Source: Clostridia bacterium
Lineage (GTDB): Bacteria > Bacillota > Clostridia > UBA1381 > UBA9506
Direction of reading: 5' to 3'
Assembly (NCBI GenBank): GCA_017416855.1
Contig: JAFQAZ010000021.1
Span: 124,001-188,000, forward strand
Length of the DNA: 64,000 bases
Within the stretch, counting starts at the first letter, position 1. Each line of letters begins with the position of its first letter. Of this stretch, positions 8,234-64,000 are shown one piece after another. Below the pieces are notes generated by a model that saw nothing but the letters and a program-made list of their open reading frames with translations, had not been told where the DNA came from and did not search any database. The position numbers and the translations under genes are program-made.

Positions 8234-8626
8234 ATGGCAGATTTATTTTATGGTACCGGTAGAAGAAAAAAATCTATCGCCCGCGTTAGATTAGTTGCCG
8301 GTAAAGGTGATATCACTGTAAATAATCGTTCTTTAGATGATTACTTTGGTCTGGAAACCTTAAAGGTTATCGTTAAGCAGCCCTTAGTTGCTACCAAGAC
8401 CGAAGGCAAATATGACGTTATCGTTTCCGTTGTTGGCGGCGGCTTCACCGGTCAGGCAGGCGCAATCCGTCATGGTATTGCTCGTGCTCTCTTAGAAGTT
8501 GATGCTGAAACCTTCCGCCCCATTCTGAAGAAAGCCGGTTTCTTAACCCGCGACCCCAGAATGAAGGAAAGAAAGAAGTACGGCTTGAAGGCTGCTCGTC
8601 GTGCACCGCAGTTCTCCAAACGTTAA
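8234..8626 (+). CDS. rpsI: 30S ribosomal protein S9
   Basis: S9 sits in the head of the 30S subunit, with its C-terminal tail reaching the P site. The 130-residue product has [15 protein letters not shown] at the N-terminus, [20 protein letters not shown] in the middle, [20 protein letters not shown] and the universal C-terminal FSKR. ATG 8234 is chosen over GTG 8228 because AGGAGG at 8219-8224 gives 9-base spacing to it. It ends at a strong terminator. Confidence 0.97.
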
Positions 8627-29018: not shown

Positions 29019-29579
29019 TCATTTAATTTTAACAGGTAAGCCGGCCACCATCAGATATGCCTCATCCGCCTGTGCTGCCACTTTTGTATTCACACGGCAG
29101 GTAATATCTCGTCGGATTCTGTTAAAGCGATCCGTCGGACGGCTACCCATCCCCAATTCATTGGTCAACATAATCACAGGAGAAGGAACACTTTTGGCTG
29201 CTTTTACCACTTCGCGCACGCTCTTCTGAATGCTTTTTTCAATCTCCACTACACTAGAAATCGGCACAGATTCCCAGCATTCATTATAATCACCTAACAA
29301 TTGTGTCACCATCACCGAAAGTCTGTCCAGCACAATGCCGTCATAGGCCGCCCCAAACTCTTCAATATGCCGGGCAATGCCATCGTAGGCCTCCAAAGTA
29401 TCCCAGCCGGAGGGCCTGAGCATTTTTCGGCACGCAATCCGGTTTTTAACTTCTTCATCGTCTTCCGGAACCAAGGTGGCAATGTAGAGAATGCTGTCAC
29501 CAACGGTTTCTGCCAGCCCTTGTGCAAAATCACTTTTGCCGCTTCTTTTTCCGCCAACAACCAAAATCAGTTTACCCAT
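29019..29579 (-). CDS. CobU/CobP homologue lacking the guanylyl-acceptor histidine
   Basis: Homologue of the bifunctional adenosylcobinamide kinase/guanylyltransferase of cobalamin nucleotide-loop assembly. The 186 residues match along the whole length: P-loop GGKRSGKSDFAQGL (about 8-21), IATLVPEDDEEVKNRI, TNELGMGSRPTDRFNRIRRD (about 136-155), the ADEAYLMVAGLPVKIK end. Salmonella CobU reads RIQHHK where this protein reads RIACRK, so both His45 and the guanylylated His46 are replaced. Kinase function may remain; the transferase step should not work as described. It follows rho by 25 bases, with no other cobalamin gene nearby. Confidence 0.82.
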   Translation of the reverse strand: MGKLILVVGGKRSGKSDFAQGLAETVGDSILYIATLVPEDDEEVKNRIACRKMLRPSGWDTLEAYDGIARHIEEFGAAYDGIVLDRLSVMVTQLLGDYNECWESVPISSVVEIEKSIQKSVREVVKAAKSVPSPVIMLTNELGMGSRPTDRFNRIRRDITCRVNTKVAAQADEAYLMVAGLPVKIK

Positions 29580-29604
29580 ATGCATGCCCTCCTGTTGTTT
29601 TATT

Positions 29605-30939
29605 TTATTTTTGATTTTTTCTGGATGTTTCAAAGTTTTTCATAATAACCTCAACCATTTCGTCATTGTTCTTTGTCCTGATTAAGGTATTAATCAGTTG
29701 TTCTGTTACTTCCTGAACCGTTAAAGACGAAGACATATCACGACGAATAGCCCACACCGCCTCCAGTTCCTTTTGCGACTGCAACAGTTCTTCTTTTCTG
29801 GTGCCGGATTTCTGAATATCCACCGCCGGAAAAATCCGTTTTTCAGAAAGCCGTCTGTCCAAATGCAGTTCCATATTACCGGTACCCTTAAACTCTTCAA
29901 AAATCACATCATCCATACGGCTACCGGTTTCAATCAAAGCCGTTGCCAGAATGGTCAGGCTACCCCCGTTCTCAATGTTTCGTGCTGCTCCAAAAAACTT
30001 CTTCGGTTTGTGCAGTGCCCCGGGATCCAGACCGCCGGAAAGGGTTCTGCCCGAAGGAGGAACTGTCAGGTTATAAGCCCGCGCCAACCGTGTAATGGAA
30101 TCTAAAAGAACCACCACATCTTTTCGTTGTTCAACCAGTCTTTGTGCCCGTTCCAGCACAATTTCCGCCACCTTGGTGTGATGCTCCGGCGGTTGATCAA
30201 AGGTCGAAAACACCACATCTCCTGAGATGGAACGCTTCATATCCGTAACCTCTTCCGGCCGTTCATCAATCAAAAGAACAATTAGCGTTACTTCTGGATG
30301 ATTTTTTTCAATATTGTTGGCAATATTTTTCAAAACCGTAGTTTTACCTGCTTTTGGGGGTGCTACAATTAAGCCACGCTGGCCCTTACCGATGGGAGCT
30401 ATCAAATCCACCAATCGCATCGAAAAATCATTCTGTGCATTTTCTAACCGGATACGTTCCTCCGGATAAATTGGTGTTAAGTATTCAAAAGGGCGTCGAC
30501 GAATAGCCTTATCCGGCGTATCATCATTCACATGCTGCACAAAAATTAATGCCGGAAATTTTTCGCCCTCTTTTGGTGCACGAGCAATGCCGGTCACTTT
30601 ATCGCCGGTTTTCAGGTTAAACCGACGAATCTGAGTGGGGGATACATACACATCCTTCGGCGTTGACAAATAGTTTTCGCCGCGCAAAAAGCCGTATCCC
30701 TCTGCCAGAACTTCCAGAATACCGCCTACAAGATTGTCAGTCCCCTGCAGCATCAGACCGTTTTTTTCCTGCACAGGAGCTTTTTCAGTTTCTTTGTCCT
30801 GAATCGTTTCTTGTCCTTCTGCTTCTTGTTGCAAAAGCAATTCAATCAGTTCCTGCTTTTTATATTTCGCAATTCCTTTAATTCCTTTTTCTTTAGCAAT
30901 CAGCCTGAGTTCATCAATTTTTTTAGTTGAAAAATCCAC
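29605..30939 (-). CDS. rho: Transcription termination factor Rho
   Basis: Hexameric RNA helicase that ends transcription at unstructured C-rich RNA. The 444-residue product has the Rho N-terminal helical domain ([20 protein letters not shown]), a cold-shock RNA-binding domain ([14 protein letters not shown], about residues 75-88), Walker [14 protein letters not shown] (about 176-188), Walker [17 protein letters not shown] (about 254-269) and the R loop [17 protein letters not shown]. The start is GTG 30939, with AGGAGGT 6 bases upstream; the earlier in-frame ATG has no such site. It lies at the right-hand border of the phage-like cluster. Confidence 0.95.
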
Positions 30940-44901: not shown

Positions 44902-44911
44902 AACAGTAACA

Positions 44912-45003
44912 AATAAATATCGGGGAGCCATAACGGCTGAGAGGAAATATCATTTCGACCCGTAACCTGATTTGGGTAATGCCAACGTAGGGAATATTTC
45001 ATG
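44912..45003 (+). promoter_or_regulatory. TPP riboswitch (THI element)
   Basis: The aptamer core is unmistakable: CGGGGAGCC, GGCTGAGAGG, GACCCGTAACCTGATTTGGG, TAATGCCAACGTAGGGA, closed by an AAATAT/ATATTT stem (44915-44920 with 44994-44999). It binds thiamine pyrophosphate and lowers expression of the thiamine uptake gene. An open frame starting at TTG 44972 runs through it and is not taken as coding. Confidence 0.96.
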
Positions 45004-45014
45004 CTTGCTTGTAG

Positions 45015-45050
45015 CGGAAACAGTCTTTTACCTGGCTGTTTCCGTTTTTT
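45015..45050 (+). terminator. riboswitch expression-platform terminator
   Basis: CGGAAACAG (45015-45023) pairs with CTGTTTCCG (45036-45044) and is followed by TTTTTT, 24 bases before the thiT start, so TPP binding probably acts by premature termination. Confidence 0.9.
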
Positions 45051-45073
45051 ATTGCAACAAAAGGAGGATCACC

Positions 45074-45721
45074 ATGAAAACCAAAAAACTTGTCACCACC
45101 GCTATGCTCATTGCTGTAGCTACTGTATTATCAATCTTTCAGCCCTTTCAGTTGCCTTTTGGGGGCGGCATTACTATTGCCTCCATGATGCCGCTGATTC
45201 TCTTGGCCTTCTGCTACGGCACCAGCTGGGGATTATTCTCCGCCTTTCTCTTTAGTCTGTTACAACTTTTATTGGGAGCCAAAACTGTAGCTGCTTTTTT
45301 CCTCCCCGGTGACAGTCAGATGATTCTCTGGCACGCCCTGCTCATTTGCTTTTTAGATTACATCCTGGCCTATTCCACCTTAGGCTTAGGCGGTCTTTTT
45401 AAAAACAAAATAAAAAACAGCACCGTTTCTATCACAATCGGTACTGTTTTCGCATTATCTCTTCGCTATATTGTGCATATCATCTCCGGTGCTGTTTTCT
45501 TCGGCTCCTGGGCAGAGTGGTTTTTCTCGCAGGATGGCTTTTATGCCTTCGGCTCTGCCATACTGGAAACCTTCTCCGGCTTCAGCCTGGCTCTCATTTA
45601 CTCCGTCATCTATAACGGAACCTATATGATTCCCGAAATCATCATCACGACTATCCTAACCCCTATTATTTATAAAGCTCTGTCTTCAGCAAAACTAATG
45701 AATCATAATTCCACAAACTAA
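45074..45721 (+). CDS. thiT: Energy-coupled thiamine transporter ThiT
   Basis: S component of an ECF transporter for thiamine. The 215-residue membrane protein has six predicted spans, the N-terminal TKKLVTTAMLIAVATVLSIF, FGGGITIASMMPLILLAFCY (about residues 32-51), YGTSWGLFSAFLFSLLQLLL and the substrate-pocket region LRYIVHIISGAVFFGSWAEW (about 134-153) with the aromatic and His residues typical of ThiT. ATG 45074 follows AAGGAGG. Control by the TPP riboswitch just upstream confirms the assignment. The ECF module (EcfA, EcfT) is not in the window. Confidence 0.95.
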   Translation: MKTKKLVTTAMLIAVATVLSIFQPFQLPFGGGITIASMMPLILLAFCYGTSWGLFSAFLFSLLQLLLGAKTVAAFFLPGDSQMILWHALLICFLDYILAYSTLGLGGLFKNKIKNSTVSITIGTVFALSLRYIVHIISGAVFFGSWAEWFFSQDGFYAFGSAILETFSGFSLALIYSVIYNGTYMIPEIIITTILTPIIYKALSSAKLMNHNSTN

Positions 45722-60849: not shown

Positions 60850-61563
60850 CTATTGTTTTTTAAGAAAGTTACAAGTATACACAAATTCCACTTTATCCCC
60901 GGGTTTTAACATATACTGCGAACAGCCAAACATCGGCTTTTCTCCGTTTACCTTATAAAACCAACCGGAGGTATCACCGCAATCAAATTCGTATAAATTG
61001 CCAATCCCTTCAATGTATACCGATTGATACATAGGCGTATAAACAAATTCAAAATGAATCCCTCTGCTTTTCGTTTCGCGAAGAAGCAAATCAAAGACTG
61101 TCTCCCCTTCTGTAAACAAAAATGTTTCTGCCTGTAAAATCCATCCATCAACCGGAATAATTCCCCGTTTTTCTTCTGCAAGCATTTCTGGGTTCTTTAA
61201 CACCTCGTCACAGCATATAGACAAGGTGCAATTTGGTTTTGTTTCCGGCTCCGCTTCTTCCTTTTCCTCCGTGATTGACGGCTCCTCTGTTGCAGGACTC
61301 TTTTCAATACCCTTTTCCTCAGTATCACTTTTTTCCCTTTTAGGTGTTCCTTTTTCATTCTCTTTTTCAACCGCAACGACCTTCTCCGAACTAACCGTTG
61401 CGGGGCTCGCCGCAGGCGCTGTTGTTGCTTGCGTGAAAACGCCTTCTGAATCCTTGTTTATTGCATTTCCACCATCAGGTTGCTCTCCTGCCATAAACGC
61501 CAGCGTTAGAATAAACAAAATTGCTGTGACAACCCCTGCGATCCGTACACTTTTTCGTTTCAT
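60850..61563 (-). CDS. secreted DUF4430 domain protein
   Basis: A 237-residue exported protein. It has an N-terminal signal or anchor helix (IAGVVTAILFILTLAFMAGE, about residues 8-27), a long Glu/Lys/Thr/Pro-rich linker (about 30-110) and a C-terminal DUF4430 domain (TVFDLLLRETKSRGIHFEFV, YIEGIGNLYEFDCGDTSGWF, YKVNG and LKPGDKVEFVYT, about 150-233). DUF4430 is the fold of the beta domain of animal intrinsic factor and transcobalamin. Its ATG overlaps the stop of the large SLH protein, so both are made together. Confidence 0.82.
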   Translation of the reverse strand: MKRKSVRIAGVVTAILFILTLAFMAGEQPDGGNAINKDSEGVFTQATTAPAASPATVSSEKVVAVEKENEKGTPKREKSDTEEKGIEKSPATEEPSITEEKEEAEPETKPNCTLSICCDEVLKNPEMLAEEKRGIIPVDGWILQAETFLFTEGETVFDLLLRETKSRGIHFEFVYTPMYQSVYIEGIGNLYEFDCGDTSGWFYKVNGEKPMFGCSQYMLKPGDKVEFVYTCNFLKKQ

Positions 61564-64000
61564 TTCTCAATCACTTCCGCAAACCGCATAATCATAGTCG
61601 ATACCTCTGCTCTTGTGGCTGTCTTCTTCGGAGCCAGCAGGTTTTCATCCGTACCGTTGATAATTCCTGCATCAACTGCATATTTCATCGCCTCACGAGC
61701 ATATTCCGATATGTTGTCTGCATCCTGAAAATCAAAAGAACCCTTCACTGTTTTCACATCACATCCGCAAAAAGCAGCATACCGATACAGAATGACCGCA
61801 AGCTGTTCCCTTGTAATAGATGCATCCGGCGCAAACGATGTCTCCGACACTCCGGAAACCAGCTTGTTGCCAGCCGCCCATGCCACACTGTCGCTGAACC
61901 AACTCCCTGAAGGAACATCTGTAAAGTTTCCTCTCTGATGTTCTTCCTCCGGCGATGCCAACCGATAAAGCACCGTAACCAACATCCCTCTTGTCATCGT
62001 CGCATTAGGTTCAAATCCTTTCCCTGTGCCTTGTAACAGATTCTTTTCATAAACATATTGTACAGCATCATAATACCATTCTCCCGACCGTACATCAGAA
62101 AAGGTCTTGTCTGTGAAAGTAGTTCGTTCCGCTTCTTGTTTTGTATCTTGATTATCCACATCTATTTTTTCCGGCGTGATCAATGTAACCGAACCAGAAG
62201 TTGTTCCACCACCGCCAGAAACGTATGGTCTGGTAAGAGAAATGTTGATCCGTTTAACCATGTGTTTTTCTGCATCTTCTGCTGAAATGCTTAATAGTCC
62301 TGTCTGATTTATATAGCCGACTGCTGCAACAGAGTATGAATACACCCCTTCAGCCAGGTCATAACAGTTCTTAGAAACAGCCTCAGCCCCTTGAACAGTC
62401 ACCGCACCGCTACCGGGTATAACATCAAAAATTACAGGACAATGAGCCACATCAGAAGCATTTGCTTCCTCCATGGAAAAATCAGAAAAATCATACATCC
62501 TTTCTCCATCATCTGACAACAACCGCCAGGCCAGTAAACCCCTGAACCCCTGTTCCGTGGCAAATGCATTCGGAAATCCTGTCAAATCTCCATTTGCAGT
62601 TGACAACAAACCATCAATCAGACTTTTTCCACCATTTGCAATAGTTGATGCATCCATCTTCATTGCCGAAAAAGCGCAAATTGCCAGGCCGGTGGATGCC
62701 GATTCATATCCTTCAAATCCATCAATCAACCCATCTGACCGTTGTTCTGCCTTTACAATCTCTGTGGCCTCATCAACAACCGCTTTCACGCTGTCTGTTT
62801 CATAGTAAGGTGAAAGCGCTAATATCATAGGTGTCATAGCATCTGTGCCATATTCCACAACCTGCCAGTCAGCGGCGCTTGTAACTGCCGCACACACAAG
62901 TTTTTCCATTTGTTCTGCCGTTGCATATTCCTCTGCCTGCGACAAGGCAAGGATCACATAAGGCAATGTATATATATTTGTCACCGCCCCATCATCACTG
63001 TCGACAAGAGCTGTCAGCTTGCTCACAAGATCAATATGTTCATATTGTTCTGTATAAATGTTCCGTGCATCATAACCAAGTGACCGCAATGCTAAAATGC
63101 CTTTTGATAAATCCCCCGGTGTTTCTGCTGTTTTTGCAAAATTCACCAGCGCCTTCAGCGCTTCTTCTTTTTTAGTCTCATTCAGGCAAAATTCACTGTC
63201 AGGAAACACGCTTTCATAAGCAACCATATCCGCAACAATCCACGGCAAATTCCCACCCGCCTCTGCAAAATTACAATCAGCAAAGTTGGCGGCAATATTG
63301 TGAATGATCTCAATTTCCGGCGGCAATGTCACCGTAGCAACGCAAACCGGTGCCGTAATGGCCGCCACAACCGTTCCATTCTCCAACGTTTTACTTTTTT
63401 TAGCAGAAATAATAAAATCACCTGTTTGCTCTAACGTAATGGTCGCCTGCCCGTTTTCATCGGTTACAACATCCGTTTCTATTCCATCAACAGTAATAAT
63501 CGCTCCCTCGCAGGGCGAAATCACCGTATTCCTGTTTTCATCATAACCACTGACATAGGTTAAGGTTATATCAAGCGCTTCGCCGGTTTCCACTTTTGTT
63601 GTCATCTTGTCAAAAGCGGCATATCCTTCCGTATTGGGATAAAAATTTTCATAAATACAAGCATCTATGTAGTCCCCGTCTTCAACCATAAACCCAAGTC
63701 CGGAAACTGTTTCAACACCACCGTTGACCTGATACCCGTATTTTTTGCTGGTATCCCCCCATAATTTATCAATAGAAAGCCCCCACTTGCCAACACTGGA
63801 AGCATATCCCTCTGTACCATCAGTATAATACTCTGCATGAAGTGCTGTAAAAACATCATCTAAAGTATATTCCTCCTTTCCCTGCAGCAAAACAGGCACA
63901 CATGCCATAGCCTCTCCAGACTTGCTTTCTGCAATAGTGCCCTCCACACTCATGGTAACATAAACAGAAACTCCCTCTGCTTCCTCCATTGCCATAACCG
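61560..64000 (-). CDS. SLH-anchored surface protein with DUF4430-like and helical-toroid domains (5' end beyond window)
   Basis: At least 811 residues; the frame is still open at base 64000 and no ribosome binding site or signal peptide is seen, so the start lies off the window. Order of parts: a DUF4430-like domain (EEYTLDDVFTALHAEYY, KYGYQVNGG, VEDGDYIDACIYEN, about 40-115), a Big-type beta domain (DGIETDVVTDENGQATITLE), an all-helical repeat region like a prenyltransferase/terpenoid toroid (about 230-490, TLPYVILALSQAEEYATAEQ, STGLAICAFSAMKMDASTIA), a beta region, and three SLH repeats (FSDVRSGEWYYDAVQYVYEK and following, about 630-811) that bind wall polymers. Confidence 0.82.
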   Translation of the reverse strand, partial: VMAMEEAEGVSVYVTMSVEGTIAESKSGEAMACVPVLLQGKEEYTLDDVFTALHAEYYTDGTEGYASSVGKWGLSIDKLWGDTSKKYGYQVNGGVETVSGLGFMVEDGDYIDACIYENFYPNTEGYAAFDKMTTKVETGEALDITLTYVSGYDENRNTVISPCEGAIITVDGIETDVVTDENGQATITLEQTGDFIISAKKSKTLENGTVVAAITAPVCVATVTLPPEIEIIHNIAANFADCNFAEAGGNLPWIVADMVAYESVFPDSEFCLNETKKEEALKALVNFAKTAETPGDLSKGILALRSLGYDARNIYTEQYEHIDLVSKLTALVDSDDGAVTNIYTLPYVILALSQAEEYATAEQMEKLVCAAVTSAADWQVVEYGTDAMTPMILALSPYYETDSVKAVVDEATEIVKAEQRSDGLIDGFEGYESASTGLAICAFSAMKMDASTIANGGKSLIDGLLSTANGDLTGFPNAFATEQGFRGLLAWRLLSDDGERMYDFSDFSMEEANASDVAHCPVIFDVIPGSGAVTVQGAEAVSKNCYDLAEGVYSYSVAAVGYINQTGLLSISAEDAEKHMVKRINISLTRPYVSGGGGTTSGSVTLITPEKIDVDNQDTKQEAERTTFTDKTFSDVRSGEWYYDAVQYVYEKNLLQGTGKGFEPNATMTRGMLVTVLYRLASPEEEHQRGNFTDVPSGSWFSDSVAWAAGNKLVSGVSETSFAPDASITREQLAVILYRYAAFCGCDVKTVKGSFDFQDADNISEYAREAMKYAVDAGIINGTDENLLAPKKTATRAEVSTMIMRFAEVIEK

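Follow-up and report, generated by a model that had tools for sequence, protein, structure and literature searches.

Animal intrinsic factor, transcobalamin and haptocorrin are built from a PF01122 toroid followed by a C-terminal beta domain. A first-pass annotation had proposed the same set of domains for two coupled surface proteins encoded at the right end of a 64,000-nucleotide stretch of a 2.37 Mb Clostridia genome (C21:124001-188000; hereafter the window), which raises the question of whether a bacterium might capture corrinoids at its cell wall with relatives of the animal carriers. All features of the gene pair lie on the minus strand. Two ORFs, at 60850-61563 (-) and 61560-63998 (-), overlap through an ATGA sequence, the larger of which is cut by the window end and continues to an ATG at L003:5059, corresponding to position 64058 in the frame of the window. 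The complete protein, of which 61560..64000 falls within the window, has 832 aa with a signal peptide MKKRMIAMLVLVMLFLGAFPVMA at its N-terminus and carries three SLH domains (61572..62108; Pfam E=7.1e-34), the putative wall anchor. The smaller ORF (60850..61563) encodes a protein of 237 aa that combines a hydrophobic segment at its N-terminus, a long charged linker and a DUF4430 domain (PF14478, Pfam E=3.8e-16; 60874..61107). ORF and Pfam analysis hence bore out both the SLH protein and the DUF4430 protein coupled to it by ATGA, and the toroid-like region proposed for the former was found to match PF01122.

The match of PF01122, "Eukaryotic cobalamin-binding protein", covered residues 281-451 of the SLH protein at E=3.6e-5 and is borderline when taken alone, scoring 23.3 bits in the protein scan and 25.3 bits in the whole-genome scan, that is, below and above the family cut-off of 25. 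PF01122, hhalign and superposition on 3kq4 together delimited an alpha6/alpha6 toroid homologous to the intrinsic factor alpha domain at residues 222-512 (62460..63332). Among 36 bacterial toroids the family matched 25 at E<=0.01, with a best value of 5.7e-9, and alignment of the 36 against intrinsic factor, haptocorrin and transcobalamin by hhalign resulted in a probability of 95 and P=2.4e-8. A PDB sequence search with the toroid profile returned no significant relative, and the link between toroid and carriers therefore rests on Pfam, hhalign and folds.

Folds were evaluated using a model of residues 8-584 of the window protein (mean pLDDT 94, pTM 0.84). The modelled toroid superposed on intrinsic factor (3kq4) with a Z of 19.4 over 238 residues at 21% identity, and on squalene-hopene cyclase with a Z of 21.5 at 13% identity. 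As the cyclase scored above intrinsic factor, the bare fold does not decide, and matches to squalene cyclases and to complement C3/C4 were taken as reflecting a shared toroid fold. The best bare-fold Z scores, from squalene-hopene cyclase and its relatives, are what would be expected of an alpha/alpha toroid enzyme at the cell surface, be it cyclase, epimerase or lyase-like. We give this explanation next to no credence, however, given that Prenyltrans matched 1 of the 36 toroids, that no lyase or glycosidase family was matched at E<=0.01 and that identity over the aligned fold was highest with intrinsic factor, at 20-21%.

The DUF4430 domain set was related to the beta domain of the same carriers by hhalign (probability 92, P=8e-7), making the domain of the 237-aa protein transcobalamin-like. 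A second DUF4430-like domain had been proposed within the SLH protein itself. This part of the annotation stood to a lesser degree, as the N-terminal ~120 aa (residues 8-128 of the 811-aa frame; 63612..63974), which form a strand-strand-helix-strands arrangement in the model, aligned with DUF4430 in hhalign at P=2.6e-4 and P=3.6e-4 and share the collinear motif GDTS..Y.VNG....G....GD.I but had no Pfam match. The profile of the domain matched nothing in the PDB, and its relation to DUF4430 is weakly supported. Between this domain and the toroid lies an Ig-like or carboxypeptidase-regulatory-like beta domain (63327..63629), assigned from the secondary structure of the model and a weak Pfam match of E=0.09. 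The domain set of intrinsic factor is accordingly present as far as toroid and DUF4430 are concerned, but not in the expected order, since within the SLH protein no DUF4430-type domain follows the toroid. Elsewhere in the genome a further DUF4430 protein of 149 aa, lipoprotein-like and with no cobalamin riboswitch nearby, is encoded on contig C26 (L004:10970-11419 (-)).

Relatives were obtained as 37 loci from a toroid-profile scan of named genomes, 8 of which were also recovered in an earlier whole-genome search, meaning that the two sets are not independent. They derive mostly from Clostridia and Oscillospiraceae of ruminant gut metagenomes, some being of other origin. In 26 of the 37, a DUF4430 gene lies downstream of the toroid gene, and several of the others stop at a contig end. 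In 16 loci, L058 and L067 among them, a DUF4430 domain is also located C-terminal of the toroid on one chain, as in intrinsic factor. Directly after the main toroid gene, L056, L057, L063, L065, L068, L073, L078 and L094 have a second and more distant one that usually precedes the DUF4430 gene where the latter is present, and in L079 a single chain contains two toroids.

Structure prediction of the toroid together with DUF4430, as the first-pass annotation had advised, was informative for the single-chain relative L058 (pLDDT 91). Its top 14 PDB matches in Foldseek were all transcobalamin, intrinsic factor or haptocorrin, with values of 3e-11 to 2.5e-9, and the next match followed at 4e-4. In this ligand-free model the two domains were not packed as in holo carriers, the rmsd over both being about 20 A. 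This agrees with the reported behaviour of transcobalamin, whose alpha and beta chains, when supplied separately, come together only in the presence of added cobalamin (PMC5599065), a ligand-dependent assembly that also fits the two-protein arrangement of the bacterial pair.

Whether the pair is tied to corrinoids was addressed through its upstream region, where a cobalamin riboswitch had been suggested as something to look for beyond base 64000. One is present on the same strand, ~160 bases before the start codon (RF00174, 64220-64442 in the window frame, equal to L003:5221-5443 and C21:188220-188442), with a score of 64.2 bits at a gathering score of 31.5 bits. An intrinsic terminator, formed by a 16-bp hairpin and a subsequent T run, lies between the riboswitch and the ATG (64095-64134 in the window frame, L003:5135-5096). 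This layout is usual for a switch that shuts genes off at plentiful corrinoid, which is the response we infer here. Just upstream of the riboswitch is a 325-aa ORF (L003:5470-6447 (-)) with no Pfam match at E<=1e-4. The genome has one other cobalamin riboswitch only, on contig C10.

The riboswitch is kept in relatives. Upstream DNA was present in 34 of the loci, of which 31 have a cobalamin riboswitch directly upstream on the same strand, followed in 25 of the 31 by a terminator-like hairpin before the gene. With only about one or two cobalamin riboswitches per genome, this association cannot be due to chance. No cobalamin riboswitch was found upstream of L065, L069 and L073, even at E<=5, and its occurrence in all relatives was consequently rejected. 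A PF01122 scan of 398 genomes of the phylum gave only 3 matches, the family being rare at that sensitivity, and the two besides the genome studied here were both from outside the order. One of them, L103, is a 1150-aa DUF4430 protein that ends in an SLH-like repeat and has a cobalamin riboswitch of 135.6 bits just upstream, and the other, L102, has none in the sequence covered. A riboswitch of a different type is found within the window at 44911-45010 (+), namely a TPP riboswitch (75.3 bits) immediately preceding the ORF of a small membrane protein (44972-45718), which is perhaps a thiamin-type ECF S component.

These data bear on the view that the larger gene encodes an ordinary SLH surface protein, adhesive or structural, that merely shares domains with the carriers. 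The three SLH domains and the many SLH proteins of the genome speak in its favor. Yet among the many SLH genes it is here that a cobalamin riboswitch and terminator are found, in an arrangement that persists in 31 of 34 relatives, and we regard an adhesin or structural protein as extremely unlikely.

The riboswitch could also be explained if the pair served corrinoid acquisition by binding proteins loaded with B12, fragments of envelopes or cells that produce B12, for example, in which case the toroid pocket would not be a corrinoid site. Riboswitch control shows only that the pair is important under corrinoid scarcity, and toroids are common to many proteins with different ligands. Residues of the toroid were compared with those of the carriers in the hhalign profile alignment of the 36 toroids, where the inner helices correspond and the intrinsic factor sequence agrees letter for letter with 2pmv. 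Tyr115, Asp153, Asp204 and Gln252 of intrinsic factor are presumably among the residues that contact cobalamin in its crystal structure. The residues aligned with Asp153 and, in a global alignment, with Gln252 are Asp385 (62841..62843) and Gln482 (62550..62552), both invariant (36/36). Tyr342 aligns with Tyr115 and is Y in 33/36 toroids, and the position of Asp204, residue 431, is E in 14 and N in 14 (28/36). The stretch Thr339-Asn340-Ile341-Tyr342 (62970..62981) aligns with the TNYYQ motif of haptocorrin, at which T is found in 22/36 and N in 26/36 toroids, and for this motif hydrogen bonds to the corrinoid ring have been suggested (PMC4350170). Judged from the alignment, presumed ligand positions of the carrier type appear to be conserved at the inner helices. 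That the toroid falls specifically in a cobalamin-binding family with invariant positions aligned to carrier contacts, and that its DUF4430 partner is likewise of carrier type, makes binding of such other ligands improbable.

Corrinoid capture at the wall would require a route inwards, and the first-pass annotation had called for ECF or BtuFCD genes nearby. Only the first of these was found. In L085, L087 and L094 the riboswitch operon runs past the DUF4430 gene into genes for a T component of the CbiQ type and for an ECF ATPase, the latter being a fused A-A-S subunit in L087, while the sequence of L094 ends within its ATPase gene. Genes of the CbiO/CbiQ type thus occur in the toroid operon of three relatives' genomes (G005, G014 and G015). 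In the genome studied here the homologous pair of CbiQ and fused ECF subunit is located on another contig, C10, immediately downstream of the second cobalamin riboswitch, and its fused subunit joins two ATPase domains to an S component with matches to PF07155 and PF12822. A corrinoid substrate is predicted for this ECF transporter from the riboswitch. A family search for the BtuF-type PF01497 gave no match in the genome, with 13/14 control genomes positive, and import by BtuFCD was rejected on this account.

The same genome encodes a MetH in which both B12 domains are present, as well as a radical SAM protein with a B12-binding domain. CbiD and CobS were not found in it by family search, and de novo corrinoid synthesis was rejected. 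As MetH is present while BtuF, CbiD and CobS are absent, the genome depends on corrinoid salvage, and to judge from its gene content the cell should need corrinoid from outside. Both QueG and the CobU homologue, cited in the first-pass annotation as uses for corrinoids within the window, were confirmed. The CobU family protein (29022-29633 (-); PF02283, 1e-41) occurs in a genome with neither CobS nor CbiD detected, which suggests either cobinamide salvage that is cut short or another role.

The transporter itself invites the explanation that the pair captures cobalt or a different tetrapyrrole in order to supply a CbiQ-like transporter. Its T component belongs to Pfam CbiQ, "Cobalt transport protein", cobalamin riboswitches control cobalt importers too, and in L083 the same type of riboswitch precedes an apparent CbiQ/CbiO/CbiD biosynthetic operon. 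On the other hand, with no CbiD or CobS the genome needs no cobalt for corrin synthesis, the S component falls into ECF S families of the vitamin type, and a bare metal ion would not be expected to call for a large hollow toroid; this explanation is accordingly judged highly improbable. Locus L083 (G011), which has no good toroid match, carries its single cobalamin riboswitch at 8264-8456 before CbiM-, CbiQ-, CbiO- and CbiD-like genes. Set against the scavenging genomes, the sequences look like those of a corrinoid maker and corrinoid scavengers inside one family.

We hold with considerable confidence that the gene pair encodes a two-part, wall-anchored and intrinsic-factor-like corrinoid capture system that feeds an ECF importer. 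The capture system put forward in the first-pass annotation is supported by the riboswitch, the ECF link and the carrier-type toroid and DUF4430 domains, with binding as a prediction; aligned pocket positions are conserved at sequence level, and the riboswitch and ECF genes make the genomic context other than one of adhesion only. Very probably the pair catches molecules of the B12 type at the wall. Under corrinoid shortage, the riboswitch would permit readthrough of the terminator, and the SLH protein would then be exported and held on a wall polymer, as its signal peptide and SLH domains indicate. Because it has three SLH domains and the genome encodes a pyruvyl transferase of the CsaB family, the polymer is likely pyruvylated. 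Homology and the conserved positions suggest that the central cavity of the toroid holds the corrinoid, over which a DUF4430-type beta domain would close, either the N-terminal one of the SLH protein or that of the coupled 237-aa protein. The latter is probably membrane-tethered, in view of its N-terminal hydrophobic segment and charged linker and of the lipobox-like start that replaces the hydrophobic segment in the small DUF4430 protein of some relatives (L012, L085). Corrinoid may then be handed via this membrane protein to the S component of the CbiQ and fused A-A-S transporter, and be used upon import by MetH and other corrinoid enzymes, the genes of which are present.

A more specific form of this capture mechanism can be put forward tentatively, although we consider it somewhat doubtful. 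The pair would be a split and doubly tethered intrinsic factor, in which the toroid on the wall and the beta domain on the membrane enclose one corrinoid, as happens in vitro with the separate transcobalamin chains, and so bring it from the wall to the ECF transporter. The clade would in that case be a living bacterial form of the lineage that gave animals their B12 carriers.

How corrinoids pass across the wall is poorly known for Gram-positive bacteria of the gut, where B12 is a nutrient that is competed for. If the proposed function is correct, these bacteria make use of a homologue of the B12 carrier of their host. Gram-positive proteins combining a toroid with SLBB domains, in both domain orders, were predicted in 2007 to scavenge B12; their operons also encode CbiO/CbiQ and a second, extracellular SLBB paralogue, B12 biosynthesis enzymes are lacking, and animals were proposed to have acquired their carriers from such proteins (Burroughs et al. 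2007, PMC1796856). The present proteins resemble that clade in joining SLBB (DUF4430) and toroid domains, in their predicted export and surface anchoring and in the second, ATGA-coupled SLBB paralogue. They also resemble it in the CbiO/CbiQ-type genes, which are in the operon of relatives and, in the genome studied here, on another contig under a riboswitch of their own. They differ in being SLH-anchored and under a cobalamin riboswitch; the text of that work makes no mention of riboswitch, S-layer or SLH (PMC1796856). The idea of toroid-SLBB B12 scavengers is hence already published, and what is new is the anchoring by SLH domains, the splitting and permutation of the beta domains and the evidence from the riboswitch. 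A literature search that covered few subscription papers found no later report joining toroid-DUF4430 proteins to a cobalamin riboswitch. If the function holds, both 2007 predictions, B12 scavenging and the origin of animal carriers in Gram-positive bacteria, can be put to a direct test using small soluble domains.

The capture of B12 at the surface of a gut commensal, as predicted here, has a counterpart in a surface lipoprotein of gut Bacteroides, which we take to be BtuG. That protein differs in being a lipoprotein of the Gram-negative outer membrane (PMC6143338). B12 ECF transporters (PMC5997447) have the same A, T and S components that are here under a cobalamin riboswitch, whereas in the present system A-A-S form one polypeptide, an extracellular capture protein is added and the S component is a candidate B12 type by Pfam family. 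Compared with intrinsic factor, transcobalamin and haptocorrin, the bacterial pair has a toroid and a DUF4430-type beta domain that are homologous at profile level, conserved inner-helix positions, secretion and a predicted role in ligand scavenging. It differs in that a beta-like domain precedes the toroid and the clear beta domain resides on a separate protein, and in having an SLH wall anchor, riboswitch control and, as we infer, delivery to an ECF transporter instead of endocytosis.
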